Source of the DNA: Heterostelium album PN500
Lineage: Eukaryota; Evosea; Eumycetozoa; Acytosteliales; Acytosteliaceae
Assembly: GCF_000004825.1 (NCBI RefSeq)
Contig: NW_008805070.1
Span: forward strand, 1,674,001-1,738,000
Reading direction: 5' to 3'
DNA: 64,000 nt
Shown: piece after piece, positions 15,492 to 63,934 of the stretch
Numbering within the stretch: the first letter of the stretch is position 1
Layout of the letters: each line of letters begins with the position of its first letter
The notes under the pieces: model-generated
What the model was told of the DNA's origin: nothing
The model's input: only the letters and a program-made list of their open reading frames with translations
The model's database searches: none
Position numbers and translations under genes: made by a program

Positions 15492-15565
15492 GTCAGGATG
15501 GTGTAGTTGGTTATCACAAAACCTTAACACGGTTTGGGTCATGGGTTCGATTCCCATTCTTGATA
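15492..15565 (+). tRNA. tRNA-Val (anticodon AAC)
   Basis: The 74 nt fold fully. Acceptor GTCAGGA/TCTTGAT pairs with two G-U wobbles. The D arm is GTG/CAC with the usual Val-type TAGTTGGTTA loop. The anticodon stem AAACC/GGTTT holds loop TTAACAC, anticodon AAC at 15526-15528. The T arm is ATGGG-TTCGATT-CCCAT. Box A (TGGTGTAGTTGG) and box B (GGTTCGATTCC) are canonical. A T5 run at 15570-15574 can terminate Pol III. It is flanked on both sides by retroelement fragments. No intron. Confidence 0.92.
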
Positions 15566-15591
15566 CAAATTTTTAAATCAAAACTACCATA

Positions 15592-15601
15592 ATGCGCGCA
15601 T
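15592..15601. promoter_or_regulatory. GC-rich palindrome downstream of tRNA-Val
   Basis: ATGCGCGCAT, a perfect 10-bp palindrome starting 27 nt after the tRNA 3' end, in AT-rich sequence. Similar palindromes follow the other three tRNA genes of the window. Confidence 0.5.
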
Positions 15602-15641
15602 ACAGAAGAAATTTTTTTGTTTCTACTCAACTTATTAATTA

Positions 15642-16470
15642 CTATAACATTAATAATAATAAGAACCGGAAGACAGTGTTTCGTCCACGCTGGTGTTTGA
15701 TAAGCGATATATAGGTGAAGATACTGTCGTAAGATGTGTAGTCGAATTTGGTTGGTGGTAGAGATAGTTGGAACTGGCCATCAGTTAGTGATGGGATGCC
15801 ATGTTTGATGATCAATAGGTGGTCGTAGATTTGCTTTAGATTGGGTGGTAGACCATCAATCAGAATTGGTTTAGCAGATCTGATCTTGTTGTCAAGATGT
15901 TTGAGATGAACTGCCAATTGGTGCCACAGAGTGTAGCATAGATTGAGATATGGCGAGGTGATAGATCTGCATTGGATTTGAGATAGCCAACTGGCATAAT
16001 AACAAACTTTGGAAGGATCAGAGGATGACAGTAGGAATCTGTTGAATATCCACACGTGTTGGGCATCATTACGAAGTTGGATGTCCCAAATGCGAGATGC
16101 CACCATGTAACCAGGTTGTACAGCTATGGTCTTTTTCATTGTGTTTTTATACTTCTTGGAATCGATGAACGGATTTGAGTTGGACGACCACAGGTACCAA
16201 GACAGTATGTTATCGAGTTTCTTGACTTCCTCATCGGTAAATCTATCGACGTGCCTATTGTAGGTGAGCTTAGAGAGTGTGTAAAGCCAACTATTATTTC
16301 CTCTTCTTCATTTCTTCAATTTCAATTTACCAATTCAATCATCTGTATTCTCATCAACTTAATAATCTATTAAATAACAATAACTAAAATAATTATAATA
16401 ATAATCAAAATAGCAATCAATTTGCAGAATTATGAAAAAGTAAAAACTGTAAAAAAAAAAAAAAAAAAAA
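15642..16470. mobile_element. retroelement insertion with inverted 5' part, downstream of tRNA-Val
   Basis: The minus strand from about 16288 to 15655 encodes the thumb/C-terminal part of an L1-clade reverse transcriptase: LSKLTYNRHVDRFTDEEVKK, NILSWYLWSS, then MKKTIAVQPGYMVASRIWDI and the following domain. At 16286 the orientation switches: 16286-16470 is a plus-strand 3' untranslated region ending in a run of 20 A. The same plus-strand tail recurs at 60914-61093. The simplest reading is one insertion whose 5' portion was inverted during reverse transcription (twin-priming type). It starts about 75-90 bp downstream of the tRNA. Confidence 0.65.
16286..16470 (+). repeat. retroelement 3' tail, copy 1
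   Basis: Begins GCCAACTATTATTTCCTC and ends in TTATGAAAAAGTAAAAACTG plus poly(A). It is nearly identical to 60914-61093, differing by a few substitutions and small indels. Confidence 0.85.
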
Positions 16471-16542
16471 GAAAAACTTGATGGTTTACACCATCCCAAT
16501 ATAAAACTTAATAAATCAATTTTTACTTCTTAAAAAAAAAAA

Positions 16543-17540
16543 TCTATTCTATCCTAACACTACTCTCAACTTATAGCTATAAAAATAGTAATAATAATAA
16601 TAATATTTTATTGACTATTTCTCACGGCCTGTATGAGAATGTATTAATAATATTAAACACGAACTACAGCAAAAATCTGAGAAACAGAGCTATCAAATTA
16701 TCAGACATATATTCATTTATTTGTTTTAGAAAGGAACAAATATATGGGAGTATAGATCTTTGAAAAATGATTAGTATTTATAAAAAAATTGAGACTTTTA
16801 ACTTTTTAAAAAAAAAATAAAAAAAAATAACAAAAATTATTTATTCAATATTTCTGAAGGAATAAAATACTTTTTGTTTTATAGATTTAAATTTATTTTC
16901 TTAAAAATCAATAAATAGGATTAAGATATACCTAGTTGATGACTATTTGATTCAAATTTTTTCATAGAGATTCATAGGGTTTTTGATAGTAACCAGGAGT
17001 CATTTCATATCACCTCTATTAACAATATTTAAGAGCTCTATTGAGTTTAGAATGAATTGCATCTAGTATATATATTTATCTCATGAATACCCAATAATTT
17101 TAAAAGCATTCAGGTCCTGACTGGTTGTTTGTATTTCAAATTTAGTTAAGTATTCATTTTAAGTAAAAACGTAGTTTGTGTTTTCGAATATTGATGACAA
17201 GTGAGATTTCTTGTAAAGTTGTCGAATATATTAAAATTAGTTAAAAGTACTATAATAAAAAATATTTTATTACTTCAGAAATATTGCACAAATTAATTTT
17301 ATCTTTTATTTTTTTTATTTTTTTTTAAATGATAAATGATTCAATTTGTTTTTTAAATATTAATCATTACAAAGATCTATCTAAGAATATATTTCTTACT
17401 TTCTATCTGTCTGATACTATTGATACCTCTGTCCTGTTTCTCAGATTTTTGCTGTAGAAGTTTAATATAAATACCTGCAATTTGTTGACTGATCATGAGT
17501 CAACAAATCTTTTTTGGAAAAAAAAAAAATAAAAAAAAAA
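16543..17540 (+). mobile_element. retroelement 3' end with terminal hairpin, interrupted by a foldback element
   Basis: The segments 16543-16666 and 17457-17540 together match the 3' untranslated region of the element at 51460-52192 (shared words include CTATTCTATCCTAA, TTTCTCACGGCCTGT, AAACACGAACTA). Both end in a perfect 11-bp hairpin (here 17480-17508, ATTTGTTGACT with 7-nt loop) followed by T-rich sequence and poly(A). The match is split by the 788-bp element at 16667-17454. The 5' end is truncated near 16543. Confidence 0.8.
16667..17454. mobile_element. foldback/MITE-like DNA element with TA target duplication
   Basis: Perfect 21-bp terminal inverted repeats (16667-16687 and 17434-17454, starting CAGCAAAAATCT) are flanked by TA on both sides (16665-16666, 17455-17456). 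Comparison with the uninterrupted copy at 52110-52125 shows the insertion split the word CGAACTA with duplication of TA. Inverted homology continues inward imperfectly: TATCA...TATCAGACA just inside the termini, and AATATTTCTGAAG at 16849 against CTTCAGAAATATT near 17275. The arms may be over 200 bp. There is no transposase ORF. TA duplications and CAG ends point to the Tc1/mariner/pogo group; it is non-autonomous. Confidence 0.82.
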
Positions 17541-17713
17541 TAAAGTTGTAACAATCAATTGGTCGTACCACTGCTAGCACCTTGATAAATGCTTACTTTA
17601 ATAATTTGAGACAATTTGTTGAATCAACAAATAGCAAATATAAAGATTTAATACGAATTACAACCAATATTTTCGAGTTGAGTTTATTAAATAAATGATA
17701 AATGAGTGTAAGG

Positions 17714-19392
17714 TTATACTTGAAATAGATTATTTCCACAATATATTCTATTGGCTTGGTCATTTTTCATTATTGATTCCCATTTATCATGTTCAAATGA
17801 ATATCTAAAATTTTGATTCTTTCCTTGGATTGAGTAGATATATATCTTTTGATCATTGGTTTGATGGTAAACTAGATTGTGGTTACTTATCTCCATCTTT
17901 ACTGTCGATCTATCTAATTGTTTAATTTCATTGGTTTCGATATTTATCTGATGAAATCCGGTATCTGATAAAACAAACATATTGCCTCTGCCATCGGTAC
18001 ATGCTGCTCTTTCTCGGGAACGGGGTAGTTTAATTGATATTTCAAATGTTGCCTTGATTTTTATATCGAATTTAAGAATCTTCTGATCAAATGGTATATA
18101 GCTGTAAATGCAGTTGTTGAAATGGAATGTAAAATGATGATATGTTGAACTTGATATTTTGGCAGTTGAATATTCTTCAAATGTTGAATTGATGATGTTG
18201 AATCTGTAGATCAGTAGTTTAGGTCTGTTGAAACCATCCATCAAATAGATATGATTTTTATCATCATAGCAAACCGACACAAAACCACATTCCTTAATAC
18301 CTTTCATTTCGATTTCTTCAAATGTTTGGTTGTCGATTGAATATCTAAAATATGTTTTGACTTTCATTCCACCTCCGAAATTATAGAAATGGTTACCAAC
18401 AATAACACAAGAGTAATAATTAAAATTGGTATAGATAGTGGTAATGTCTTGTTGTGTGAAACGAATATTATTTTGATCGGTTATATCGATAACTGATATT
18501 TTACTATTGGCTGTTGATAAAATATATGGTTTTTTGTTTGACTGCTTCTTTGGTTGTGATACAAGTTTGAATGTAGACTGAAGTTGATTCTTAATTTGAT
18601 TAAGTTGTTCATAATTGGTGTTCAGTCTGTATTGTTGTAGTTGATTGTGTTTTACATTGAAGTGATTGTACGATCGCAATGTATTGTTGTGTTCAAGTAA
18701 AAGATTTAACAATATATGGTCATCATTCTTTGTGTTGGAGTAACGATGATCATAATTCAAATTAAACAATGTATTATTGTTTTGAATGAATTCATCATGA
18801 TTTAAGCATTTTGATATTGATGTTATTATTGTTGATGTTTGATAACTATCGGTTGTATCCAAAGATGATATGGAAGAAGAATATGATGTTGTTGTTGCTT
18901 TTGATTGTGGATTCGGTTGAAAACTATCAGAAATAATCTTGTTTAATTGATGATTCATTAAATTCAATGATCTCATGATTGTTGTTTGACTTTCGATTTG
19001 TTGTTCCAATTGTTCTTTGTTGTCGATGATCGGTTTCTTTAGTTTGTGTTCTTCTAAAACAAGGAATTCATGCAACTCTTTGAATCTATTTGATATCTCA
19101 TCTTCTGTTTGTCGATTTTGTTGATATTCTATGACTGCTGACTTTAGTGAATCGAACGTTGTTTTAATCGTTAACTGAATATCAGAAATGATGGCAGGTT
19201 GCTATTATTATTGTTGTTATTAATGTTTTTGTTATTGATTCTGTTCTTGCTATTGATAAGTTCTGATTTAATTCCATTGACATGATCGAATAGATGATGT
19301 CTATGTCGTGGTACACATTCAGAACATAACAAAACATTGCAATCAAAGCAAATGAATTCGAATTCTCTATTATGTTTCGAACAACCGTCCAT
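17714..19392 (-). pseudogene. B-box / coiled-coil / propeller gene with one frameshift
   Basis: The start ATG (19392) follows AGTAATAA and gives MDGCSKHNREFEFICFDCN and a full B-box (CSEC...HRHH). After an Asn run (about 19195-19230) the frame shifts by one base. The second frame (PAIISDIQLTIKTTFDSLKS, then coiled coil ELHEFLVLEEHKLKKPIID) is open to the stop at 17714. Propeller blades include FYNFGGGMKVKTYFRYS, HIYLMDGFNRPKLLIYRFN, RAACTDGRGNMFVLS and the ending RIYCGNNLFQV. The shift sits in an AAC/AAT repeat, a common slippage and assembly-error site. No GT-AG intron fits. Except for this one base the gene would be complete at about 560 residues; it belongs to a different subfamily from the 8246-9982 copy. 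Confidence 0.75.
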
Positions 19393-19805
19393 TTATTACT
19401 AAAATATTTATGCAAACAAACTAACTATAAAAAAGTAAAAAAATTTGTTGAACTTTTTGACAATGAAGAAAGTCACACATTTTATAATTAAGAGATTATC
19501 ATATAGTTACTTATTAAAATATGATTTAAATCGTATTTGACTCTGCGCCATCTTTAACAACATTTACATTGAAATTTGACCAAAATAGTTTTGTTTTCGT
19601 TTCAATTCAATATTTTCAAACGAAAATCGTAAAAATAAACAAAAACTGCAAGGAATCAGAATGAAGAAAGCCATTCATTCTTTAATAATTACTCTACACT
19701 GTTTTGTTTTAGATTATAAAAATACAATTTAAATAAGTTAGGTTCTTATTTTTGTTATTGTTGTTTTTTTTTGTTGTTGTTGTTGCTGTTATTTATATAT
19801 TATTA
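19393..19805. other. intergenic between B-box gene and WDR83 3' end
   Basis: No gene. This is the upstream region of the B-box gene and the 3' flank of the WD40 gene, with T/G-rich repeats at 19750-19790. Confidence 0.5.
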
Positions 19806-21008
19806 TTATTGTTGAGTGTCCCAATATCGAATAGAAGCATCGGTTGATGCTGAAATAACGATATGTTGCTTTGGATGTGTATCGATTGAAGTGACAACGT
19901 TTTGATGTGCTTTGAGTCTGCCAACGATGTTGCCTTCGACAATGTCCCACAGATAGATGTCGTTGTCCTCGGAACCACTGACCACCAGTGAATCGTCGAA
20001 CACCGTACAACTATTGAGTTTGTATATCGAATTACGATGACCCGAGAAATCATTTAACAAATCACCGGTTTTCTTCTCCAACAACTGAATCGATGAATTC
20101 ATTGCACCGACCAACAAACATTTTTTATCATGTGTTAAATAGATTGATGATAATGCATCTACATTAATAATAAACATAATAATTAATAATTAATATTATT
20201 AGTAAATTGATAAAAAACCGTGGATATAATAGTTGGTTAGATAGTTAGTTATTAGTTTTACTTACGATTTAATTGATCATATTTTAATTTGCCATTTCTA
20301 ATATCATAGATTCTAATTGCACCATCGACACTACATGATATGATTTCGAATTCATCGTCGTTGACAATGACCGATGTAACACTGTCTTGTGCATCTTCGA
20401 TCACCTGAATAGGATCTGCATTTCTAGATTTCAAATCCCATATCTTTATACTCTTATCGTATGATCCTGATAATAAAATGGATTGATCTCTATTCAATGC
20501 AATCGAATTTATTGTCTAAAATATAATAAATAACAATAATAATAATAATAATAATAAGATTATTTAATTAATAAACTAAAACAAAGAAAACAAAACAATC
20601 TACTTTATATATACTTTACATGTGAATGACCTTTAAACTTTCTAATTGTTTCACCTGATGTTATATCCCATTGATAGAGTTGACGCTCTGCACAACTATA
20701 GATATGATTGTTATCAGGCGAACTCTTTACATCCAATACAGGATAGCCATGTCCACTGAATGTATGAATCAATAACTCTTTAGATGGATTCCAAAGCTTA
20801 ATAGTCTTGTCTTGTGATCCACTCAGACAATATTGTCCATCATCTAATTAGGCAAATAAATTAAAAGTTAATATACATACATACATACATATTAGATATA
20901 GTATGATAATATAATATTATTAATAACTACTACTAACTTACTATTAAATCTAACAACTAAAACTGATCCTTGATGTCCTAATAATACTTTACTATTATTA
21001 AATTTCAT
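19806..21008 (-). CDS. wdr83: WD-repeat protein WDR83 / MORG1 orthologue
   Basis: Four exons (21008-20942, 20843-20620, 20515-20266, 20158-19806) join in frame to 297 residues, the usual length for this family. The product is a seven-blade WD40 propeller beginning VLLGHQGSVLVVRFN. Further blades read DGQYCLSGSQDKTIKLWNP, YSCAERQLYQWDITSGET, LLSGSYDKSIKIWDL, SCSVDGAIRIYDIRNG, VVSGSEDNDIYLWDI and VISASTDASIRYWD. The blade order and wording match MORG1/WDR83, a scaffold for ERK signalling in animals that also co-purifies with spliceosomes; which role holds in amoebae is unknown. Introns are 77-110 nt with GTAAGT/GTAAAG donors. It is divergent from the CUE-domain gene 660 bp away. Confidence 0.88.
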
Positions 21009-21670
21009 AACATGTTATTCATTAACAAAAAAATAAAAAAAATTTATGACCAAGTAATAAAAATTCAAAAGAATAAACAAGAGAATTAGACTCTGATCAA
21101 AGAGAGACAGATATGTTGATCGATGGTCATTCAATTTATGAAATTTCTTTTTAATTTTGTTGAAAAATTATTTTGTGCACAATAAAAAAAAAAGAAGTTC
21201 AAATTAATAAATCAAATATTAAAAATTTATTAGAATTTTAAAAATTAATTTATTTCTTTTTTTGATTTTTATTGCACAATAATTTTTATCAATAAATATT
21301 TACAAATTTATAGAAGGTACCGCTAAATATATACAACTCGTTAAATATACAAAATATTGACTAAAGAGAACATATATATAAGTTGAAGTTTTATTTTTGA
21401 TATCAACATTTCTATACAAATTACATTTAATTTAATAAAAAACACAGTGCAACAACAACAACACACAAGAGTAATAATATACTAATTAATATTTGTTTAT
21501 TAATTTTCAAACAAAAAGTTAGTTATATTATATATTTATATACTTATATAGATAGATATTGTTGAATTTACAATTATATTTGTTATATTTGCAATTATAT
21601 TTGTTTAGTTTTGTTTAGTTTGTGGTTATTGGTTGTATATGAACAAAGAGAGATAGGAGAGAGAGAGACG
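21009..21670. other. divergent promoter region of wdr83 and the CUE-domain gene
   Basis: AT-rich with long A and T runs. No additional gene is visible. An in-frame upstream extension of the CUE-domain ORF (from 21611) has no ATG. Confidence 0.5.
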
Positions 21671-23389
21671 ATGGAAGATCATATGATACAGAATAACAAT
21701 AATAATGGAGATAGTGGTGGTGGTGGTGTTGGTGCATCCGTAAATGATGGTATTGGTACGACAACATCAACAACAAGTCCAAAGATAAATAACAACAACA
21801 ACAACAACAACAATAGTGGTAATGATCAGGTATTTGGAGATTCAACAACTACTGCTACCGCTACAAGTAAAGACGATCCCACTAACATTAGATTTGGAAG
21901 TAGTCAGAAGACATTCACTAGTTTGTTCGGTCAGATTCCAATGCCACATAATATTGCGATTCAACAAATCCCATCGCAAGTGGCATCTCTACCGCTTGCA
22001 GATTCAAATCGATATAATAAGAATGGCAATAACAACGAAGACGATCATAGTAATAACAATGGGGACGATCATCACAAGCATCATCATAGAAGCAGTAGAT
22101 TCACACCGTACCGTGCGACTCCACATTTAGATTATCAAGACCGTTTGGAGTTGGTCGAGCAGATCGTTTCGATGTTTCCACTGCTCGAAAAGGATGGCAA
22201 AGTATACTCGATTCTCGAGCGTAACTCGTGGAGCGTCGAGAAGAGCATTCCCGAGTTGCAGAAACGACATGACCAGCAAGAGTTGATTGCTAAACAAGCG
22301 AAAGCATTGGTGCCAAACAATTTGGATGGCAGTGGTGGAAACAACAACAATGGCGGTGGCGGCGACACTATGAACGACTCCCAGGAGATGTCAGAGGGCA
22401 GATCCATTTCATTGTCAGACTCGATGAGCTACGAGGACGAAGACGAAGAGCTGCTCGGCGAGGAAGAAGAAGAGCCGGTCGACGACAACCAGCTGTTCCC
22501 CAAGCTCAAAGAGGACATACAGACACTGAAGGACATCTTTGGCAACACCTATCAAGAGTTTGAACTGAAAGGTTACTATATGATGTGCAACGGCAATTTA
22601 GAGCTGGTCATAGATCAGTTGGTCAACGAACAGAACCAAATCAATAAACTAAAAGAAGAGAAACCATCGGTACAACTACCACCAAGACAACCACTTACAA
22701 GCCGACTTTCCGAAGCTGAGAAGCGTGCTCTACAATTACAGCTCATCGAAGAACAAGAGAAACTAGAAAAGAATTTTGAAACCAAAAAGAAAGAGAAAGA
22801 ATCATCTCATCCAAATAAGAAAACTTATTCACAACAAGATATATTAAAAGTAAGTTAGAAAACGAAACAAAGAACTTATGTTTTTGAACATATATATTCT
22901 AACAATCATTATATATAGGAATTAAAAGAATTATTTGGAAAGACAGTAGAAGAAGGTGTTATAGATTGGGTAGCTTATTCATGCGATTATAATTTAGGAA
23001 ATTGTGTTACTCAGTTGATCGATCTAAAGAACAATGCGTTGATGAAGAAAGGTCAAGCCGCCGCTGCTGCCGCAGGTTTCAAACCACAGTTGGACCCAGC
23101 AGTACAGATGAAGCTTCAGAGTGGTGTTGCTGAGCTTCTTGGTGGAATGGCACCGAAAGCAGAGGCACAGATGACAGACGACACAACCACTCCAACTATA
23201 TTAACATCACAGGTTTCATTTGAATCGTTCCTCACCGACGTCCAAAGCAAGCTTACAGTTCCACATAGCGAAACAAGCACAACCACAACCAACAACAACA
23301 ACAACAACAACAATACAAAGACATCACCTACTAGTTTATGGGAAACATCACAAACCAATATTAAATTAGAAAAAACAGATGATAAGTGA
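21671..23389 (+). CDS. CUE/UBA-type ubiquitin-binding domain protein
   Basis: Two exons (21671-22849, 22919-23389) with a 69-nt intron (GTAAGT...ATATAG) give 549 residues. After an Asn/Gly-rich start there are three CUE/UBA-like helical units. The first is QDRLELVEQIVSMFPLLEKD...ILERNSWSVEKSIPEL (about 155-200). The second is LKEDIQTLKDIFGNTYQEF...MCNGNLELVIDQL (about 275-320). The third is LKELFGKTVEEGVIDWVAYSCDYNLGNCVTQLI (start of exon 2). An acidic linker (YEDEDEELLGEEEEEP) and a charged helix (about 365-385) separate them. CUE domains bind mono-ubiquitin, so a role in ubiquitin-dependent sorting or degradation is likely but inferred. I do not recognise a named orthologue. Confidence 0.8.
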
Positions 23390-23524
23390 TACAGGAGAAT
23401 AATCAATTATATAAAGTTTGTAAAAATATAGAATTCCCTATTTAATAATTAATTATGTTGTTGTAGTTGTTGTTTGTGCAAAAAAAAACAATGATTAATT
23501 TATTTATATTTGATTTATTTATAT

Positions 23525-51271: not shown

Positions 51272-51354
51272 GACATCTTGGCCGAGTGGTTTTAAGGCGT
51301 TTCCCTGCTAAGGAAATCCCTTCGGGGGCGCAGGTTCGAATCCTGCAGATGTCG
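51272..51354 (+). tRNA. tRNA-Ser (anticodon GCT)
   Basis: The 83 nt fold as a class II tRNA. Acceptor GACATCT/AGATGTC is perfect. The D arm is GCCG...AGGC. The anticodon stem TTTCC/GGAAA holds loop CTGCTAA (GCT). The long variable arm is TCCCTTCGGGGGC, and the T arm is GCAGG-TTCGAAT-CCTGC. Box A and box B are canonical. No intron. A retroelement fragment follows about 110 bp downstream. Confidence 0.95.
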
Positions 51355-51379
51355 ATACAATCTTTAATAAAAACACTGT

Positions 51380-51389
51380 CCGCATGCGG
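51380..51389. promoter_or_regulatory. GC-rich palindrome downstream of tRNA-Ser
   Basis: CCGCATGCGG, a perfect 10-bp palindrome starting 26 nt after the tRNA end. Confidence 0.5.
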
Positions 51390-51459
51390 TTTGGTAAAAA
51401 AAAAGAAAAAGAAATTGATGTTTATATTCATATTTGCTTTATTACGAACAAACGCAAGA

Positions 51460-52192: not shown

Positions 52193-52194
52193 CC

Positions 52195-52350: not shown

Positions 52351-52843
52351 TCATTAACACTAAAATCGTAATTCTAAACGAATAGTTGTATTTAATATTT
52401 AATAAAAAAAAATAAATGTGTAACCATTCTAATTTTCAAATGTCTTTAGATATTATAAATCACTTCGGAGTGGATCATTTTTTAATTTAAAAAAATAAAA
52501 TTGTGGATCAATCTTGTTAAATAAGCCATAATCCTCTTTTACTATCTTTAGGTTAATAATAAATAGAGTTACTTTAACAACTGGGATTTTGAAAAAAAAT
52601 ATTTAGTTACCTCCCACCATTTCTCCATCCTTCAAATTGTTCCATTGGCTGTATATTGTAGTTATAATGAATTATAAAAATAAGTACATTTTACTCATTA
52701 ATAAATTCCTTTTTATTGAAAATTTAAATTTGAGTTAAACTATACATAACAAATAATATGATTTAATTTTTATTCACAGATTTAAAAAAATTCAAAACTA
52801 AATTTGAAGAAATAGTTTGAAATTTCTTGAGTTTCTTAAATTC
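52351..52843. other. intergenic
   Basis: No gene. 3' flank of the TM2-domain gene. Confidence 0.5.
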
Positions 52844-54940
52844 TTAATCTATTTCCAAAAAATGATCAAACATTAAGATACCACTATTTGGAGTATCATC
52901 GTATGGATTGTTATAAATACTGTCGCTGATGCTCATTGATGATGATTGTGGACCACAATTTTGAGAGCACTGATTCTTTGGATTACAATTCTGAGAGATA
53001 GTACAAGAGTAACCCGCTGCACAATCTGCATTGGTACGGCAAGTAGCTGCTACACAATAGGCATTGGTAGCACAAATGCCTTTGCCATCGTACCGACTCA
53101 TACACAAACATTGGTATTTCTGGTACCACGGGCATGTCGTCCAAGGGCAACAACCACCTATGTACGGACAATAGCAATCACCACAATTAGTTATGGCTTT
53201 GTCGCATGTTGCCGCCAAGTTTGTCGTCTGTTGTGCAATATCCCATGATTTCGAGAAGATGAGCAAACTCAATGAGATCGACGGTCCGTAGACAAAGTTA
53301 AGACTGTTATAGACTTGTTTGTCTCCTGTTGCTGAGATACAACTGCATTCATAGGGATTGGTGTTGAAACCACGTGTCAGTTGAAGTCCACCAGTCATAT
53401 CTATAGCGAGTTGCGGTGTGATTCCAAACATGGTAAAAGTAATGCCTGCACCGAGCGTTGTGGAGATGGACGATGTGCAAGACGAAGAATGATTGAAAGG
53501 CAGCACAACTGGATTGCTGTTGAACGACGATATCGAGGTGAATCCATTTTCTTTGGTATAGGATGCACCCAGTTTCGCATTGAAACTATCGGTTGCACCC
53601 ATACTAAAACTCTCTTTGAGTGATACCGATAGCGATACACCGATTGTTACATGCCAATTGACAACAAGCGGAATGTTGACAACCGGAAGTAAGATGATTC
53701 CAAGTATGGTCGGTGGACTATACTCGTAAGACCATGGGGTGATCGTTAGTGAGTCTGAAGTCTGAACGTTCAACAAGAATCCCATTGTTAGTTCACCCTC
53801 AGCGACCAATGTCAGTTCTTGGAATGAATGACCACTGATAACTACACGGTGATAAAGATTCGGTGTGAATTCTAATGTTGGATCGAATGAAATCGAAGCG
53901 GAACTAGATGCATCTATAGTAAAAGAGTGGTCTTTGAACAAGAACTTTAGGAAACTTGACCATAAATTACTACCACCTCCACCAGACTTTAGGTTTTGAT
54001 TACTTAATAAACTTCTCTTAATATTATTTTTAGATCTAGCTTTTTCAACTCTTACTAAATCTGATGAGGAATCGCTGCTATTGTTGTTGCTGTTTGATGA
54101 ATCATCAAACTGTGTCATTCCATCTATAAAAGCATCGGAGAATACATCGGCAATGGTAGCATTTCCAACTGTTAGACTGGTTAAACGAGAACTATTATCA
54201 TAGGTGATGACATTGATAATTGTATGTGTGAATCCACCGATATCATTACCGGCTATGATATTACCTGTGGCTGGAGGAACGATATGATCTGGCCATACCA
54301 GACTCATAAATGTATTGTTTGATCCTGGCTGAACAGAGTTTTCTGGTATTATAACTGTGTTGTTGCCAAGCGAGTACCACGAAACTGTTACATTCGATGT
54401 TATACTGTTGCCAGGCAGTAGACTTCTCCATGTGAGTGTTGCGTTATGCCAACCAGCACCTTTGAAAGTATGTGAGGTGTGCGGACCTGAGGTGGTTTTC
54501 GTAGTGTTATCGGAGAACGTCCATTCATACTTGAAGAAAACATGCTTGAATACACCGTGATCCGGCTTGAGATGACCTTGAAACTCTCCGGTGATTTCAC
54601 CGGTGGTGCCTAGCATAGCTACCGGTTGCGTCGTTAGATAGAGCTCATGCATCGCCAGTGTTCTGGCGAGAATGAGGAAAACGATGGTGAATATCAATGT
54701 TAGGATGAACGTCAAGAAGAAACAGCAACGATCATCTTTTCTTTTATCGCTATCAAAGTCTGACTCGTCAACCATAGCGTGCATACGTATACCATCGATG
54801 ATCCAACCAATCCCAAACGCACCCAGAGTCAGAGTGAAAGCGATAGCCGAAAGGTAGCGACCTAGATAGTACCTATGACCACCTAGTAAACCTGTGAGTG
54901 CCCATATTATATATGCTGACTTTAAACTCTTTTCACTCAT
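52844..54940 (-). CDS. TM2-domain protein with PKD-like and Cys-rich ectodomain
   Basis: An intronless 698-residue ORF. Residues about 4-58 form a TM2 domain: KSLKSAYIIWALTGLLGGHR, then YYLGRYLSAIAFTLTLGAFG and WIIDGIRM. GGHRYYLGR is the family hallmark between the two spans. A third span follows (CFFLTFILTLIFTIVFLILA, about 73-92). The remaining 600 residues are probably outside the cell. They include a PKD-like segment (FFKYEWTFSDNTTKTTSGPH, about 130-185), many N-glycosylation sites, and a Cys-rich region (about 580-670: CDKAITNCGDCYCPYIGGCC, CRTNADCAAGYSC). TM2 proteins are usually short; the large ectodomain suggests an adhesion or receptor role, which is inferred. Confidence 0.8.
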   Translation of the reverse strand: MSEKSLKSAYIIWALTGLLGGHRYYLGRYLSAIAFTLTLGAFGIGWIIDGIRMHAMVDESDFDSDKRKDDRCCFFLTFILTLIFTIVFLILARTLAMHELYLTTQPVAMLGTTGEITGEFQGHLKPDHGVFKHVFFKYEWTFSDNTTKTTSGPHTSHTFKGAGWHNATLTWRSLLPGNSITSNVTVSWYSLGNNTVIIPENSVQPGSNNTFMSLVWPDHIVPPATGNIIAGNDIGGFTHTIINVITYDNSSRLTSLTVGNATIADVFSDAFIDGMTQFDDSSNSNNNSSDSSSDLVRVEKARSKNNIKRSLLSNQNLKSGGGGSNLWSSFLKFLFKDHSFTIDASSSASISFDPTLEFTPNLYHRVVISGHSFQELTLVAEGELTMGFLLNVQTSDSLTITPWSYEYSPPTILGIILLPVVNIPLVVNWHVTIGVSLSVSLKESFSMGATDSFNAKLGASYTKENGFTSISSFNSNPVVLPFNHSSSCTSSISTTLGAGITFTMFGITPQLAIDMTGGLQLTRGFNTNPYECSCISATGDKQVYNSLNFVYGPSISLSLLIFSKSWDIAQQTTNLAATCDKAITNCGDCYCPYIGGCCPWTTCPWYQKYQCLCMSRYDGKGICATNAYCVAATCRTNADCAAGYSCTISQNCNPKNQCSQNCGPQSSSMSISDSIYNNPYDDTPNSGILMFDHFLEID

Positions 54941-55603
54941 TATATTTTACCCAATAATAATAATAAAAATAAATACAATCTTCTAACTATCTATCTATTA
55001 CTATTTATATCTTTTTATTTATTTAAATTTTAATTTGATTGATTGATTGATTCATCAAATCAAATAGGAGTAAACTACAACTCCTACATTTAAGTTGAGG
55101 GATGAAATCATTACAATTGATATTTTTAAAAACAAAATCAAGCACCCAACAAAATATTGATTGGGCGTGCCTTGATTTATTTTTGTTAAAGATTTTATTT
55201 GTCGCTAAATCTCCACCAACACCACAGGATAAAACATCTTTTTCTTTTTGGTGGAGATGATCATCATAAAATAAAAAAAAACCAAAAAATTGGATGTTTA
55301 ATTTCAATGATGATGGTTTGGTTAATAGTTATTGTATTCGTTTTGTTTGTGTACTTCATGATTAGATAATGACATAATTACCAAAAGTATTGATTGTAAT
55401 AATTAGAGTCATCATTAACAACAAACGAAATCACACAGAATTCAATAACAATAACAATATGATAGTCAAACCTTGATAGCGAATTGAAATCATATGATTT
55501 GACTAACAATGCTATGAACCAATGCTTACATTTCAAATAAATATATTTTATTTTAGAATCTATCTATTGTTGTTATTATTCGTATTATTATTATTTAATA
55601 TTG
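54941..55603. other. intergenic
   Basis: Upstream region of the TM2-domain gene and 3' flank of dr1. The minus-strand frame 55023-55307 has no conserved content and I do not call it. Confidence 0.5.
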
Positions 55604-56337
55604 TTATTCTGTTGGTGGCTGTTGTTGTTCACCACCATTATTATTACTCTGATAGGCTGATTTTGCTTGTGCGAATAAAAGTTGTTGTTCTCTGAGTAGT
55701 TGTTCTGGTGGTTTGTTTCCTTCAAACTTTTTAGATTTACTCGGTTTTGCACTCGCTTCCTCTTTATGTTTGTCATAGACTTCCGATACTTTCTGTGTAT
55801 ATTCATTGAATCCTAATTCCTATATATAATAACAACAACAACAACAACAACATCGGTCAATATACGATAAATAAGAATCTGTTTCGTTTTGATTTGATTT
55901 GTTTTTGAACAATTACATTTAAAGCTTTAATAACATGTTCTGCTGCAATCGTTTTTCTTGTTTCTTTTTGACAGATATCGTTCGCTTCACTCGATATCAA
56001 ATGTATAAACTCTAAACAAGTTAGATTATATATTTTAGTTAGTTGATATGATATTGTAGTTATAATAAATTGTAATTGTAACATACCAACGCAACACTCT
56101 AAAATCAAATCTCTTGTCTCTGTAGAACACTTTACACCTTCAGGTAGTACTTCTTTTATAAGTTTTGATACAGTTGCTATTAACAAATATAGGTAGTATA
56201 AGTATAATAATCTATTGGTTTGTCAATCGATCGATCGATCGTTTAAACTAGTTACTGATATGAAACTAACTAACAAACTATTTACCTTTTGGTAATGATA
56301 AATTATCATCTTTTTCACTTTTAATCATATCTGCCAT
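55604..56337 (-). CDS. dr1: NC2-beta / Dr1, histone-fold transcription repressor
   Basis: Four exons (56337-56286, 56176-56087, 56011-55917, 55819-55604) close in frame to 150 residues. The histone fold (about 14-85) matches Dr1 closely: DDNLSLPKATVSKLIKEVLP, TRDLILECCVEFIHLISSEA, NDICQKETRKTIAAEHVIKA. A C-terminal Gln/Pro-rich tail keeps the PPEQLLREQQLLFAQAKSAY block typical of Dr1. It pairs with NC2-alpha and binds TBP on TATA promoters, blocking TFIIB and TFIIA. Introns are about 100 nt. Confidence 0.95.
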
Positions 56338-56560
56338 TTTTATTTATTTATTTATCTCTTTTTATATTTTATATCTACAACTTTTTCTAAGAACTAGTTT
56401 TAACTATTAAATTAAAAAAAAAAAAAAAAAAAAAAGAAAATTTCAAGTTTCTTTTTTTTTTTTTTTTAATTAAAGAAACAATTTAAATATAAACAATGAT
56501 TAATCTTATATATATTTTTAAATAGATAATATTTAAATAAAAAGAATACTGAATATCAAA
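56338..56560. other. spacer between dr1 and a B-box relic
   Basis: Contains an A-tract (about 56412-56433) and a T-tract (about 56452-56467). No gene. Confidence 0.5.
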
Positions 56561-56860
56561 TACACATTCTACCATTCTCAGTATGTCATGATAACAATGG
56601 AAATTTCTACATAAACTCTAAACTGGACAATCGGTTCATCAAATACAACGTTGAAACAAACAATCATTGGAACTAATTTGTAATAATTTCAAAAGTGGAT
56701 TTAGATATTTGACATATCACTCTGGCATCAAGCTATCTATTTAATAATGGTTTTATATAAGGTAATGTCAAATAGAAAAAAACAAATATGACCGACTCTT
56801 CAAAAATGATACTTTCGAAGAAACGGGTGTGCCTCAGTATCAATAACAATTAATATACAC
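56561..56860 (+). pseudogene. internal/3' relic of a B-box/propeller gene
   Basis: The plus strand reads LSVCHDNNGNFYINSKLDNR then FIKYNVETNN (about 56578-56670), the second-last propeller blade of the 8246-9982 subfamily. Decayed pieces of the final blade follow (YHSGIK, FKNDTFEE). No start or B-box is present. Confidence 0.7.
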
Positions 56861-57106
56861 AATACATAATTTAAATAAATTAAAATATTAGTACTAAACG
56901 AATATTATCTATTCTTCATTCTTCTATATTAACTCTTCATCTAATTCATTAACTTCACATCATCGAATTCTTGATATATGATTTAATTATGTATATTCAT
57001 TATTATTATTTCTAATTTTTTTAATAATATGTTTTCATTATAAGAGTAAGTAACATGATCATATTGTTTTATATTTATATATTTTATTTATTAAGTTATT
57101 GTTATT

Positions 57107-58158
57107 TTAAATGGTTGGTCTTGGATCTATGCTATCGACTACACCATCGTAAGTCTTTTGTTTGACGACAGCAGCAGGAGTGTCCAATGGACCTTCGATA
57201 TTCTCTTTACGCCACTTCTTTGAGAGATCAACTGTTGGTCTTGGAATAATAGAGTTTGTTACTCTCGAGATTCTCTCACGAACACCATCGATCAATTGGA
57301 AATGTACTCTACATGCTTTTCTATAATTATAATGATAATGATAATTATAATAATAATTGTTATTATTAGATGATTATGATTTCTTTTTTCTTTTATCGAT
57401 TTTCTAACAATGAATGTGTGATTTGATTTTACATACTGATTATTTGGATCTATATGAGCTATATTTGAATAATGAATGGGTGCCTCTTTTGTGTATGCAC
57501 CACCCTTTTGATTCTTTGTTGATTTCGCCAACTTTTTGATCAACTTTAAACCTTCTACCAATACATTGTTATGTTTTCTGTTAACTGATTTTATAATACC
57601 TTGCTTTCCTTTATCTCTACCTGCTAGAATTTGAACCTAAATAAAAATACATACTAATTAATAAAACTGATTTCTTATTTCATAACTAACTATTAAGTCT
57701 CTCTCTCTCCTCTCCTCCTCTTCTCTTCAATCTATCTATCTATCTTTCTTTTTCTCTTTTTATGATTTCATTATTGTTTGCTAGAGACTATTCACTTTTT
57801 AATTAAGAATGAATAACTGTCGACGATAGATCGATCGATATAGGATGTATGTCGACCGTAACAGAACTCTAACTGCATGAATGCATTATTACTAATAATT
57901 GACTTTTTCTTTTTCTTTTTTTGTTTTGAATCAAAAGTTGTATGCTATACTGCTGGTCATTCTTTTTTGATTTAGATGTTTGTTGTAGTTGTTACTATTT
58001 ATTCGTAGTGTTATTGTGGTTGCTGTTTGTTAGTTGATATGATAAGCACTGCTTATCATAATAATACGAAGACCTACCTTATCACCAGTCATAAACTTCC
58101 ATTTATTAATTAAATATAAACCTTCTTTGAAGGGACGACCACCAAACAATGTACTCAT
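57107..58158 (-). CDS. mrpl24: mitochondrial large-subunit ribosomal protein bL24m
   Basis: Three exons (58158-58078, 57636-57437, 57320-57107) close in frame to 164 residues. The KOW motif spans the first splice site: FMTGDK/VQILAGRDKGKQGIIKSV, the RNA-binding hallmark of bL24. Then come RKHNNVLVEGLKLIKKLAKS and the family's APIHYSNIAHIDPNN segment, with a C-terminal extension usual for mitochondrial forms. bL24 is an early assembly factor of the large subunit. There is a basic N-terminus but no clear cleavable presequence. Intron 1 is unusually long (441 nt) and carries a 23-nt near-perfect palindrome. Confidence 0.9.
58038..58060. repeat. 23-nt palindrome inside mrpl24 intron 1
   Basis: Arms TATGATAAGCA and TGCTTATCATA are separated by a single C, about 20 nt from the 5' splice site on the gene strand. 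It could form a hairpin in the pre-mRNA or be a protein site. Confidence 0.5.
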
Positions 58159-58836
58159 TCTATTTAATTAGTGATCTGATTAAAAACAAACTACCACTAA
58201 ATTGATCATTAAAAATTCTCATAGATCAATGTTTCGTTTTTTTTTTTTTTTTCTAACACAAAACTTTTTTTATTTTATTAATTTTTTTATAGAATTAATC
58301 AAAAGATTTATTAATTATCTTTTTAAAATTGAATATAACTTTAATGTATATCTTTATTTTAAGAATATATTCTTTAGATACTTGAAAAACAATATATATA
58401 TATATTATTTTAAAAAAAACGAAAAACAAAAAAAACAGAAAATAAATTATTATTAAAAATAAATAAATCAATGATATTGTAATCTGATAAAATACAAAAA
58501 ATAATATGAAAATAATAACTATTACAAAGTTAATTGATTTGAATAAATATATTAATTACAATTCAAAAAAAAATAAAATAAAAAAATAAAAAAAAATAAA
58601 AAAAAAATGAAAAAAAAAAAATTAAAACGACCGATTAAAAAAAGACTTATTTTCTCTCTTTTTTTTTTCCCTCTTCACCTCATCTTTATTTTATTATACT
58701 ATTATTTATTATTGATTAAAATATATATCTAAAAGTGTTTTACATATATATTAGCAAACAAAACCGGAATCTCTTGTTAAAATATCAATAGAATATAGAT
58801 AAATTCAGTTAAATTGTAACGAAAAGATAAAATAAA
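58159..58836. other. divergent promoter region of mrpl24 and mak16
   Basis: Extremely A/T-rich (A-runs around 58566-58620). The open frame at 58202-58456 is a low-complexity Phe/Tyr/Asn artefact. Confidence 0.5.
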
Positions 58837-60087
58837 ATGCAACAAGATGATGTCATTTGGGAAGTGATTAATCACTCATTTTGTTCTTTTAAAACAACGT
58901 ATGTATATATACATTTTTGTTATATATATTTTAAATGTTATTTTTAATCTTTTATTAATCAATTCTATCATATTATTATTATTATTACTATAGATTTAAA
59001 GAAGCAAAGTTTTGTAGAAATGAATATAATGTTTCTGGTGCATGTAATAAGGTATCATGCCCATTGGCAAATTCAAGATATGCAACTGTACGTGAGGAGA
59101 AAGGTGTTTGCTATCTCTATATAAAGACAATCGAACGTGCACACACACCCGCCAAGCTCTGGGAGAAAATCAAACTCGATCAAAACTTTATGGCTGCAAT
59201 CGATACCATCGATAAAAACCTCGAGTATTGGCCAGGTCATATGATTCATCGTGTCAAACAAAGATACATCAAGATTACACAATATTTAATTAGAATGAGA
59301 AAACTTAGAAAACAAATCAAGTATGTTTATATTTAAAAGATTTTTAAAAAAAAAAATAGTTTAAATGAAAACTAATTAACAAACTTTTATTATTATTATT
59401 AAAATAGACGTGAATTGGTACCAATTAAGAAGAAGACTGAAAGAAGAGATGCTGCTCGTGAACAAAAAGCTATGGTTGCTGCTCAACTTACAGTTAATAT
59501 TAAGAAGGAATTGATTGAAAGATTGAATAAGGTAAGAAATATTATTGTTTTAATGTTGTGTGTTTTCTTGAAAATATGTATATTAATTATGTTTTTTATT
59601 TTTTGTTACAATTTTAATACTTTTTAGGATGCTTATGGTAATATGTATTATTTCCCAGAAAAGATTGTTAATGATGTTTTATTGTCTGAGGGTGTTCAAG
59701 ATGAAAACGAGGAAGCTGAAGAGGAAATGGAACAAGAATTAGATCAATATATCGAGGGTGACGACGAAGAATACGAAGAGGAATATGAAGATGAAGATGA
59801 GGCTGAACAAGATCTCGAAGATAACGGATACGATTTTGATGATGAAGATGACAGTGAATTTGACGACGATGATGACAGCGAAGAAGAATATGTACCTAAA
59901 AAATCGGGTAAGTACAGGACTTAAAGTTGACCATAATTATAATTATAATCATTTTAACTAATCAAATTAATATTTTATCTTTTTTTTACGTACATAATAA
60001 TTAGTCAAAACTAATAAAAGACCTATGGTTGAGATTGAGTATGAACAGGAAACAGAAACACAACCAACACAAGTTAGAAGACTATAG
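58837..60087 (+). CDS. mak16: MAK16, 60S ribosome biogenesis factor
   Basis: Five exons (58837-58898, 58994-59320, 59408-59531, 59628-59907, 60005-60087) close in frame to 291 residues, near the family's roughly 300. The conserved N-terminus [19 protein letters not shown] and [20 protein letters not shown] carry the Cys residues typical of MAK16. Then come [40 protein letters not shown] and [21 protein letters not shown] long acidic tail ends in the diagnostic [14 protein letters not shown]16 acts in the nucleolus in early pre-60S particles. Confidence 0.95.
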
Positions 60088-60613
60088 AAACTTATATTTA
60101 AATAAAATAATTATCTCCATTTAATTTTTTTGAAGTAGTATTTTACTCAATTTGAATATTTATAAGTGATGGTGAAGTTATCTCATAATTTATATTTATA
60201 TTAATGTTTCACTCTAAATTAGATATAGTATGAGTCAGCACTTTTAAATCATTCTAATATTTAATACCAGTCATAGTGTCTATAGACAAAAGAAATAAAG
60301 ATGTTCAGTATTTATGGTAAAAGTAACAAAACAACAAAGAAAAGAAAAAATTGTGGAGAAGGTAAAAAGGGTCTGTTCTAAATGTACATTGAAGTATGTT
60401 ACGTTAAAGATTGAATGTACATTTCTTTGGACTTCTCAGTTTCATGATTTATAAGAAAAATTATTTGATTATTCTTTTGAAATGAAAAGTTATATTAGTA
60501 TTTATCTAACCAATACTTTCTCTATATGGGGGTTAGTTCCAACAAAATTTGGAACTGTTTCATACTGCGCCAATCGTCAAATTCACGAATTTCGGTTTTC
60601 AATTTTCATCAAA
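60088..60613. other. intergenic upstream of tRNA-Trp
   Basis: No gene. A small hairpin (AGTTCCAA...TTGGAACT, 60535-60556) lies about 60 bp before the tRNA. Confidence 0.5.
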
Positions 60614-60694
60614 GGCCGGTTGGCGCAGTGGTAGCGCATAAGTCTCCAAAAAAGAGTTAGCTTCAGGTCAAGGGTTCGAATCCCTTACTGGTCA
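60614..60694 (+). tRNA. tRNA-Trp (anticodon CCA) with short intron
   Basis: Acceptor GGCCGGT/ACTGGTC (two G-U wobbles), D arm GCGC/GCGC with loop AGTGGTA, T arm AAGGG-TTCGAAT-CCCTT. The anticodon stem TAAGT pairs with GCTTC (four pairs, one T-C mismatch at its base) only if a roughly 9-nt intron follows position 37 (about 60650-60658). The anticodon CCA is 60646-60648. Box A and box B are canonical; a T4 run follows at once (60695-60698). Mature length would be 72 nt. Confidence 0.85.
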
Positions 60695-60711
60695 TTTTAA
60701 AATCATATGTG

Positions 60712-60719
60712 CGCATGCG
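60712..60719. promoter_or_regulatory. GC-rich palindrome downstream of tRNA-Trp
   Basis: CGCATGCG, starting 18 nt after the tRNA end, within GTGCGCATGCGG. Confidence 0.5.
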
Positions 60720-60913
60720 GTAAGGATAGGTCTTTCATCAAATCTGGAAATTCTATTTTGGCGGTACTCCTCTCCACGATAACAACCTACTATCTAATGA
60801 ATCTATCATAAATGAGTATATACAGCACAAATCAGTAATGAAATTAATTATAAATAACAGTATCAGTAACTTACAATCCAAACTTAAATAACCGAGTAAC
60901 CAATCAAATGTCT

Positions 60914-61093
60914 GCCAACTATTATTTCCTCTTCTTCATTTCTTCATTTTAAATTAACCAATTCAATCATCTATATTCTCATCAACTTAATAATCTATAA
61001 AATAACAATAACTAAAATAATTATAATAATAATCAAAATAGCAATCAATTTGCAGAATTATGAAAAAGTAAAAACTGTAAAAAAAAAAAAAAA
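60914..61093 (+). repeat. retroelement 3' tail, copy 2 (downstream of tRNA-Trp)
   Basis: Matches 16286-16470 over its whole length, from GCCAACTATTATTTCC to TGAAAAAGTAAAAACTG and poly(A) (61079-61093). It starts 220 bp downstream of the tRNA in the same orientation. It is a 5'-truncated insertion, or the 3' remainder of a longer one; 60722-60913 has no recognisable coding match. Confidence 0.82.
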
Positions 61094-61640
61094 GTAAGAT
61101 ATAGGTTATACATTTAGATTAGTACTATTCTCTTATTAGTTTATATACTTTTTATTGTTGGCTAGTTTAACTTCCCATTTTGTATAGCTGGAAAGAATCT
61201 TTTATTAAACATACAACCGTTATATATATTTAAAAGTCGATGTCAACTTAGTCTCTATTGAACAGATTCAACAAAGTATTGAACAAATAGTGACACTTAC
61301 TTTAAAACAAAAAACATCCTTGTCTTTACAGGTAAGACAATATTGTAATAAAAAGGCAAACTTCTATCAATACAGTTTATCAATTTTTTGTAATAAATAT
61401 TTAATTCATTTTTTTTGTCATTTAGTTATTTCTCTATTTTATGATCGATGGTTTATTATTCTTTAGTTTAAATGTATTTAGAAACTTCATAACTGATGTT
61501 CTGTATTAGTTTATCTAAACTATATTTCATTTAATTTATTCAATAAAAATATTCATTTTTATAATTTACTTTCAGTGTAATTAATAAATGTAAAAGAAAA
61601 TCTGAATAATAAAAATACATTGTTGTGCTCACAACATTTG
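61094..61640. other. intergenic with a short gene-like fragment
   Basis: A plus-strand frame at about 61230-61460 reads VDVNLVSIEQIQQSIEQIVT... and includes a donor-like TTTACAGGTAAGAC. It may be a remnant exon. No family is recognised. Confidence 0.35.
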
Positions 61641-63150
61641 AAATCATTAGAGTTCATTTCTTTTAGTTGAAATGAACTGATGTTCAAAATGTAATCTCGA
61701 ACACATCAAATCACACAAGTCACGTTCAGTTAAGTGAGCATCATACAATCTGTTAAAGATATTAAAAATTAAATTAGTAGTAATAATATTAATATTAGAA
61801 ATACGAATAATAAATTGATGATATAGATGATCACTGGTGAACAAAGTAGAAAGATAGTAGATTTTTAATAAACAGAATAGAATCAATATGGGATTGCCTG
61901 AAGCTTGTCAATTGAATAAAATAAACAATTGGGAAAGAATGAAGATCAGATATCAGAGAATTTCAAACTTTTATATGAATTCAAGAATATAAATTTAAAC
62001 AATTCATAAACATACAACTGAACATCTTGTTGATACAAATATTAATGAATTAAAATATTTAATTTAAATAATCAATTTTTTTGATAGGTTACTTTCTAAT
62101 AATAATATTAGTAGTATTACTATTGATACATTCACAGCAGATTCAACAGATTAATATTCAATAACAAAAATATTACTATCAATTAAGTTCGTCTCAGATA
62201 ATAATCAAATATTGTTCAATGAACATCATGATCAATTCAACACTCAAGAACTTCAAAGACAACACAACAATGATTCATCGTCAATATTAATTGATATCAT
62301 TATTAAATACAAAAATTCAAATCTAAAACAATCGATGATGTATCAACATCTTATGTTTTATCAATCAAACAACCTGGTTTCAATCTTTTAATTCAATTAT
62401 TAAACAATCAATAAATATTGAAAAATAGTTTTCACAATGAAATTAAATCATCATATATTTTCACAAAACATCAATTAGAAGGAGTTGCAACACTGATCTA
62501 TACTATAAATAACAATTCAATCGAACAATTCAAATTTGATTATGAATTTATTGTACTTTCCAATCAATTGTCGCAAATCGTTAATATATCTATGCATTCG
62601 GTTGAATCAACACTAATAAACGGATTAAATTCTCAATAAAATTGAAATCAGTTAAACACATTGGTGAAACCGATTGTAAATTTCGTGGTTATTATTTATC
62701 AGTTTGTTATTCAAGATCATATCTATTTGATGAATTATCCTAATATGCAGATAAAGTTGATTGATTCAACATCAACTAAATGAAGGTTAGTTACCTATTG
62801 AAAATAGTCATTATTCATCAATGATATTCAAAGGTTCATTATATTCAAATTCAATAAAAATATGTTATTTCAAATCGATTTGGCTACCAAAAAATAAGTT
62901 ATTATTCAATTAACATTCTGCCAGGCTCGGCATTTAATGATAACTATGGAAATTTTTAATATATAAAACCAAAAGTTTAAAATTTTCTTCCAATACAATG
63001 TTGAGCGCAACCATATATCCAACTCTAAACCTATTCCCATCAAAGATGGTAGTCCTTACTTGATGTATCATCGATAGTCAAAACATCAAGCTATATCTAT
63101 TCATTTGGAGGTGTCGAATATGGTAATTCAAATATTCAATATTGATTGAT
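61640..63150 (+). pseudogene. strongly decayed B-box/propeller gene
   Basis: Pieces appear in the correct order but in changing frames. A half B-box (CSKCNLEHIKSHKSR, about 61687-61731) comes first, then Asn-rich linker remnants. Next is the propeller entry SYIFTKHQLEGVATLIY with NNNSIEQFKFDYEF (about 62450-62550). The SVCY..DHIYL and CHDN-type blades follow in broken form (about 62700-62960), then TSSYIYSFGGVEYGN (about 63080-63125). Many stops make it dead. It is most like the 10264-12984 gene's second half. Confidence 0.7.
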
Positions 63151-63826
63151 TTCAATTAATTGAACAATTCATCCAACAACAAAGCAACAATGAAATAATT
63201 GAATATTTAAATAATAATAATGAAATCAACAAGAATAAGATACAAAATAATGATAAGAATAATAATGATACCATCAAAACATATAGTATTAATGATTATT
63301 CAATTTTAGAAATCTTTGAAAATCACTTTGTAATCATATATATTTATAATAAATATTAAATACTCAAATTTAATATTTGAGTTGAGTATTTAAAAATTAT
63401 ATTTAGGAGTATTGGTTATGAAATCTCTGTCTGCACTCCTGTTCCAAAGTAGAACGCTCATCTATTTGATCTATCTATCTTTATTTTTGGTTATTCGATT
63501 TTTTGTGGACGGGATCCTGAACCTAATTCTTTTTAACAAGTAGAAGAAGATAGTGGGAAGCTCTGCGATTGTTGAGGATGATTTGTAGTAATTACACGTC
63601 TAATATTCATACTATTTCATAGCACATCTGGAAGGGGTTTTCAAACTTTAGTCTTTTATCACTTTTGCCAAAAACGTCAAGTCTTTCCAAAGATAAGAGG
63701 GTTCTTTGTAACAGGGGAGTATGTAAGAAGGTTCATCTGTGTGATGCTTGTGGAGAAGATCATAATTCGTTAACTTCCCTTTTGGCATTGAGGGAAAACT
63801 AATTGGTTTACAAATTGATTAGTAAA
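63151..63826. other. intergenic with an Asn-rich coding remnant
   Basis: The plus strand at about 63150-63340 is open and reads QLIEQFIQQQSNNEIIEYLN, an Asn/Lys stretch and SINDYSILEIFENHF. It is typical amoeba protein composition but no start or family is seen. Sequence beyond 63400 shows nothing recognisable. Confidence 0.35.
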
Positions 63827-63838
63827 TATGCGCGCATA
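63827..63838. promoter_or_regulatory. GC-rich palindrome downstream of initiator tRNA-Met
   Basis: TATGCGCGCATA, a perfect 12-bp palindrome. The tRNA is on the minus strand and ends at 63863, so the site is downstream in the direction of transcription (core 26 nt away). Confidence 0.5.
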
Positions 63839-63862
63839 CTGGGTCTAGTTAAATAAAGGGAT

Positions 63863-63934
63863 TAGCATCTGGAAGTTTCGATCGACCGACCTGTGGGTTA
63901 TGGGCCCACCGCTCTTCCTCTGAGCTAAGATGCT
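63863..63934 (-). tRNA. initiator tRNA-Met (anticodon CAT)
   Basis: On the minus strand the 72 nt show initiator hallmarks: an A1-T72 pair in acceptor AGCATCT/AGATGCT, anticodon stem GTGGG/CCCAC with three G-C pairs below the loop CCCATAA, and T-loop ATCGAAA with A54 and A60. The D arm is GCTC-AGAGGAA-GAGC. The T stem GGTCG/CTTCC has two adjacent mismatches (T-T and C-T), which is odd and may mark a decaying copy. No intron. Confidence 0.85.

Follow-up and report, generated by a model that had tools for sequence, protein, structure and literature searches.

The window analysed here, a stretch of 64,000 nucleotides (nt) of Heterostelium album PN500 (G000:C9:1674001-1738000, in a genome of 32,926,113 bases on 39 contigs), carries four transfer RNA (tRNA) genes, each followed by a short GC-rich site that contains two copies of the half-site CGCA(T). 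The GC content of the window ranges from 26 to 37% per 8 kb, and a table in PMC4334915 lists Polysphondylium (Heterostelium) pallidum with 33 Mb, 41 supercontigs, 68% A+T, and 273 tRNA genes. An earlier note on this DNA had described a palindrome behind all four genes, and gene prediction with ARAGORN together with word searches confirmed it at each of them and at the positions it had been given. The genes and sites are listed below with the basis of each entry, F1 denoting sites with convergent and F2 sites with divergent half-sites.

15492..15566, plus strand: tRNA-Val (AAC) gene (ARAGORN)
15570..15574, plus strand: run of five T, probable RNA polymerase III (Pol III) terminator of tRNA-Val (sequence)
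15587-15588, plus strand: CC of the F2 consensus, upstream of the tRNA-Val site (sequence)
15592..15601, plus strand: F2 site ATGCGCGCAT with divergent half-sites, after tRNA-Val (word search, sequence)
51272..51354, plus strand: tRNA-Ser (GCT) gene (ARAGORN)
51380..51389, plus strand: F1 site CCGCATGCGG with convergent half-sites, after tRNA-Ser (word search, sequence)
60614..60694, plus strand: tRNA gene labelled Phe(AAA) by ARAGORN (ARAGORN, sequence)
60711..60720, plus strand: F1 site GCGCATGCGG, one mismatch to CCGCATGCGG (word search, sequence)
60712-60719, plus strand: core CGCATGCG of the F1 site GCGCATGCGG (word search)
63827..63838, minus strand: F2 site TATGCGCGCATA with divergent half-sites, after tRNA-Met (word search, sequence)
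63841-63843, minus strand: CCC of the F2 consensus at the tRNA-Met site (sequence)
63862..63935, minus strand: tRNA-Met (CAT) gene (ARAGORN)

Measured from the gene ends called by ARAGORN, the palindromes start 26, 26, 18, and 24 nt downstream of the four genes in the order of the list, which slightly corrects the offsets reported before. The third gene had been named tRNA-Trp; a tRNA gene does lie there, which ARAGORN assigned to Phe(AAA), although 60614-60694 may plausibly encode an intron-containing tRNA-Trp. Two further loci, L143 and L144, located about 1.7 kb apart on contig C7, likewise received the label Phe(AAA) and look like tRNA-Trp genes with an intron. The tRNA-Met gene is presumably of the initiator type, judged by its B box GGTCGATCGAA. 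In the case of tRNA-Ser, a run of at least four T was found neither between the gene and its F1 site nor in the 80 nt beyond the site.

Within the window, the exact core CGCATGCG occurred at two places, both at tRNA genes, compared to an expectation of 0.10, and two or more occurrences were reached in none of 100 shuffles. Exact ATGCGCGCAT was also found at two places, again both at tRNA genes. When up to one mismatch to any of three forms was allowed (F1, F2, and the direct repeat F3 described below), the window contained just one place that is not at a tRNA gene, namely TAGCGTGCAT at 54775, and eight arbitrary 10-kb stretches revealed 2 further one-mismatch places, neither of them at a tRNA gene. 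One of these stretches, L074, includes two tRNA genes, and both are without a site at this threshold.

Layouts and frequency of the site

Two copies of the half-site CGCA(T) were present in each of the three forms, which bears out the CGCAT/ATGCG half-site proposed in the earlier note, and the forms differ in the layout of these copies, namely convergent in F1, divergent in F2, and as a direct repeat in F3. F1, found in 66 genes, reads CCGCATGCGG, its centre being loosely conserved and its right flank weakly enriched in T/A, while F2, found in 31 genes, reads WWGCGCGCAT with a conserved CC or CCC 4-6 nt upstream, i.e., (CCC-N3-)WWGCGCGCAT. The rare F3 was identified in 4 genes as CGCATTNNGTGCCGCAT, i.e., CGCAT-N7-CGCAT, a direct repeat offset by 12, and its perfect form has three places in the genome, all of which are tRNA sites (L006, L010, and L043). 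The site is thus not always the perfect palindrome described in the earlier note: 41/66 F1 sites carry one mismatch and 5/66 carry two, and the third layout is a direct repeat.

The layout also differs between gene copies of one isoacceptor, e.g., Asn with 7 F1 and 4 F2, Lys-CTT with 2 F1 and 12 F2, and, with F3 involved, Lys-TTT with 3 F1 and 3 F3 and Arg-ACG with 5 F1 and 1 F3. A convergent Gly/Arg pair (L039:792-990) has one palindromic site in common, placed halfway between the two genes at 45 nt from one B box and 44 nt from the other, and a second convergent pair (G000:C14:875392-875495) seems to have a common site as well, as judged by B-box coordinates only.

The frequency of the site was determined in a motif-blind sample of 104 tRNA genes. 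It comprised a first set of 63 genes (the best 63 of 1916 Rfam tRNA candidates by score), a set B of 35 genes (out of 71 B-box places on contigs C2-C7, with 74 such places outside the first set), the 4 genes of the window, and 2 genes in L074. The three forms were recognised from the first set, before set B, and the exact scoring words were fixed after the sequences of set B were known. Each gene was scored by its best match to any form starting 22-90 nt from the start of the B box, and 804 windows located 120-1000 nt downstream of tRNA genes served as controls.

The site was detected with up to one mismatch in 95 of the 104 genes and with up to two in 101, compared to 0/804 and 10/804 control windows, respectively. 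At these two thresholds, the first set contributed 59 and 62 of 63 genes, set B 32 and 35 of 35, the window 4 and 4 of 4, and L074 0 and 0 of 2. Absence behind most tRNA genes or equal frequency elsewhere, named beforehand as outcomes that would speak against the proposal, was thus not what the sample revealed (101/104 versus 10/804); the claim that the element follows every tRNA gene holds as near-universal, not as universal. In tRNA 5' flanks, the site occurred in 0/76 cases with up to one mismatch and in 4/76 with two, and at B-box words that do not belong to a tRNA gene in 0/36 and 2/36, respectively.

At the level of the whole genome (32.9 Mb), CCGCATGCGG was found at 63 places, the reversed word at 1. 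On contigs C2-C7, 18 of its 20 places lie downstream of a tRNA gene, ARAGORN having left the anticodon unnamed in two of the 18 cases, and the two others (L003 and L151) resemble coding DNA by eye. Combinations of a B box with the site were similarly distinct: B box-N22-52-TGCGG had 98 places and B box-N22-52-GCGCGC 43, versus 0 control places each, while the loose B-box word alone had 301 versus 49 and retrieved places without a tRNA gene of their own in 36 of 71 cases. Shorter or looser words were far less specific, namely the short core GCGCGCAT with 143 places versus 55 and CCGSNWGCGG with 317 versus 122 (both strands, so that palindromic places count double). Chance or base composition as the cause was ruled out by the shuffles, the reversed-word controls, and the 804 control windows.

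Copying of the site along with its gene was ruled out as the main cause by the median spacer identity of 48% within isoacceptors; between different isoacceptors, it was 41%. Spacer identity exceeded 80% in eight pairs; the five of them within one isoacceptor, namely L050/L051, L119/L120, L127/L128, L088/L132, and L143/L144, are probably recent copies. Apart from that, the non-tRNA loci L106 and L123 carry a B-box word in near-identical surroundings (GGACATTGCAGGTTCGATTCCTGCTTTTCTCAACCCGAG), which probably represent a repeat.

With respect to other Pol III genes, two matches to the signal recognition particle (SRP) RNA were found at C7:128688 and C4:196595, the second below the Rfam cut-off, and no F1-family, GCGCGCAT, or F3 place was found near either of them, so that tRNA genes may be the only ones to carry the site. 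A search for 5S ribosomal RNA in the assembly gave no match at E ≤ 0.001. U6 was found at two places, the second of which (G000:C27:1433655-1433795) is weaker, lies about 9 kb from the main one, and has a longer match span. The open frames of the window include those of a calnexin-like protein and of a Kelch protein with a B-box zinc finger.

Position and proposed function of the site

The centre of the site lies at a median of 29 base pairs (bp) beyond the tRNA 3' end (5-95%: 21-33) and at a mean distance of 50.8 bp from the start of the B box, with a standard deviation (SD) of 4.0 bp; the spacing also displayed a possible helical-phase pattern. Between gene and motif, a run of at least four T was present in 62/101 genes, compared to 32.6 expected from shuffled spacers, and T is most frequent roughly 6-9 nt past the tRNA end. 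In these 62 genes, the motif centre is located at a median of 20 bp past the end of the longest such run. Such a run is missing before the motif in the other 39/101 genes, and 21 of them also lack one over the 80 nt that follow it, which is unusual for Pol III genes.

Based on these data, we favour, at somewhat less than even confidence, a double-stranded DNA site for a sequence-specific protein, which most likely would serve as a backstop for Pol III termination and recycling just beyond the terminator. The earlier note had proposed a role at the DNA level, either as a binding site or as a Pol III boundary or terminator aid; such a role is supported here, the boundary or terminator part being what we infer. 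The candidate protein is probably dimeric or equipped with several DNA-binding modules, and its spacing may be dictated by the Pol III complex assembled there, i.e., by the B box with TFIIIC and by the terminator. A Pol III halted on a T run would have its front edge near 20 bp beyond it, i.e., near the motif, so that a protein bound beyond the terminator could hold the polymerase at short T runs. Pol III held in this way might be released and re-used more easily and read through less into the adjoining DNA. A palindromic site would function from both sides, which fits the common site of the convergent tRNA pair. In a more specific and more tentative version, an undescribed Pol III factor of social amoebae would read the half-site in three geometries and form a DNA-bound backstop at essentially every tRNA gene.

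Several points weigh against the backstop. The positions of motif and T run are weakly correlated (r 0.21, p 0.10, n 62), and the position of the motif varies less when measured from the B box (SD 3.8) than when measured from the T run (SD 5.0), which favours a role linked to TFIIIC over one linked to the terminator. Ordinary T-run termination probably also operates, because runs of at least four T exceed those in the shuffles. In addition, three of the 104 genes are without a site at up to two mismatches, namely the tRNA-Cys gene of L049 and both tRNA genes of L074, the Ser gene of which seems to carry a degenerate F2; the set-B gene L127, scored at up to two mismatches, keeps just ACCGC and is doubtful; and the one site of the Gly/Arg pair in L039 enters the counts twice.

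Alternative explanations

The main rival is a promoter aid, in which the bound protein would interact with TFIIIC at the B box, stabilise the Pol III complex, and replace the external B box (ex B), and which we consider possible but rather unlikely. According to PMC5911963, about 80% of the tRNA genes of Dictyostelium discoideum have ex B, a second copy of the B box about 100 bp downstream of the internal one, whereas a search at +60 to +160 revealed no clear enrichment here (8/104 with up to two mismatches versus about 5% of 526 control windows), as would suit such a replacement. The smaller scatter of the distance to the B box, compared to that of the distance to the T run, points in the same direction, while the spacing nevertheless varies by several bp, and the consensus sequences CCGCATGCGG and WWGCGCGCAT bear no relation to that of the B box (GGTTCRANYCC). 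The two SRP RNA matches without an F1-family or GCGCGCAT place nearby are consistent with a promoter aid, but do not discriminate it from the terminator reading.

A chromatin boundary or nucleosome-positioning site would imply a general regulatory factor that keeps the terminator free of nucleosomes and sets the Pol III unit apart from its surroundings, the nucleosome-free DNA being an incidental target for retroelements. Such a function would be compatible with the downstream repeats, since in 58/74 loci a repeat common to another locus begins downstream of the motif, with a median distance of 43 nt, and one repeat family starting at about TGTAAGAAGGTT begins 11-26 nt past the motif end and 65-78 nt from the start of the B box at seven genes (L013, L025, L041, L042, L058, L063, and L109). 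These repeats were sought past the motif only, and some of the starts are low-complexity A/T stretches. One site for two convergent genes would also be compatible with a boundary. General regulatory factors, however, usually serve RNA polymerase II (Pol II) promoters too, while the exact F1 word rarely occurs away from tRNA genes (18 of its 20 places on C2-C7 follow one), and we regard this explanation as unlikely.

A relation to retroelements, with the site as the target of downstream integrators (TRE3-like or Skipper-2-like) or as their relic, has very little probability in our view. According to PMC5006619, downstream elements in P. pallidum lie 26-151 bp past tRNA genes, and the repeats of the sampled loci do start beyond the motif. 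All 74 repeat-tested loci carry the site by selection, as loci with more than two mismatches had been left out; 16 of them have the site and no shared repeat in the downstream DNA examined, so that the site does not seem to be part of a retroelement, and others have distant repeats. Furthermore, the stretch between site and repeat is variable, and host-wide selection for a parasite target at nearly all tRNA genes is implausible. Being located between the gene and the repeat, the site is part of the tRNA locus; it may form the near edge of the retroelement landing zone. It is possible that it guides retroelements, though the start of the TGTAAGAAGGTT family is about as tightly spaced to the B box as to the motif and does not demonstrate guidance by the motif. 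In the window, DNA from 51480 onward, 91 nt beyond the tRNA-Ser motif, matched other tRNA loci of the sample 29 times in BLAST and is probably a retroelement copy.

An RNA-level signal, i.e., a hairpin terminator or a pre-tRNA processing signal in the 3' trailer, is highly improbable as well. In its favour, the site is possibly transcribed in the 39/101 genes without a run of at least four T before it, and, according to PMC9278858, hairpins can help yeast Pol III to terminate at weak T tracts, although there they lie upstream of the T tract, while the site described here lies downstream of such a run in 62/101 genes. RNA folding of eight trailers showed seven to be no better than shuffles, and one (L017, z -1.5) to be better than most shuffles. 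Symmetry outside the core was near the column expectation without a consistent excess, with the exception of the third flanking pair of F1, which was complementary in 35/66 sites compared to 24.9 expected. A stable stem with compensatory symmetry, as for a hairpin terminator or processing signal, was not found, and F3 is a direct repeat. The RNA hairpin therefore received little support, and the processing signal suggested in the earlier note was weakened. The evidence from symmetry, folding, the F3 layout, and T runs points to a DNA site together with many weak terminators.

In the general view, control of tRNA genes rests on an A box and a B box inside the gene, on TFIIIB upstream of it, and on a terminal T run. 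To this layout, a near-universal site outside the gene and close behind the terminator would add a further part, and, if the backstop holds true, the Pol III unit would possess a defined, protein-marked 3' border besides the T run. The site may account for how 39/101 genes cope without a run of at least four T before it, and it may supply a physical edge to the retroelement landing zone downstream of tRNA genes. The sequence also points to a candidate binding protein, and the exact F1 word, which marks tRNA genes specifically (18/20 places checked), could possibly aid the annotation of Pol III genes.

Comparison with known systems

A literature search, beyond the reach of which were most papers in subscription journals and bioRxiv preprints, revealed no apparent description of such an element. 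Among known sites, that of NRF1 (TGCGCATGCGCA) has the core CGCATGCG in common with F1. NRF1 is a metazoan Pol II factor, however; F2 and F3 do not contain this core, and their layouts are not NRF1-like. The Pfam domain Nrf1_DNA-bind (PF10491) had no match in the genome, with control genomes being equally silent.

A likeness in position is given by NF1 sites (TTGGC-N5-GCCAA), which near the terminators of human VA1 and tRNA genes aid Pol III termination and reinitiation. Like these, the site described here is a DNA site with dyad symmetry just beyond a Pol III terminator, with a proposed role in termination and recycling, although its sequence is different. We know of no report that NF1 sites are near-universal at tRNA genes. 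A location just beyond a T-run terminator was found in the 62 genes with a run of at least four T, while 39/101 have no such run.

The T-run terminators of yeast with their accessory hairpins (PMC9278858) share with the site its place at the 3' end of the tRNA transcription unit. They differ in that the site lies downstream of at least four T in 62/101 genes and shows little hairpin signal.

The remaining system for comparison is ex B. At one tRNA-Cys gene (L047, C5:459354-459477), the internal B box is followed 113 nt further on by a perfect second copy, in the manner of ex B. The site itself is unrelated to ex B in sequence and lies at about 51 bp from the start of the B box, but resembles it as an extragenic element of a social amoeba that is placed at a preferred distance downstream of most tRNA genes, here 101/104 with an SD of 4.0 bp.

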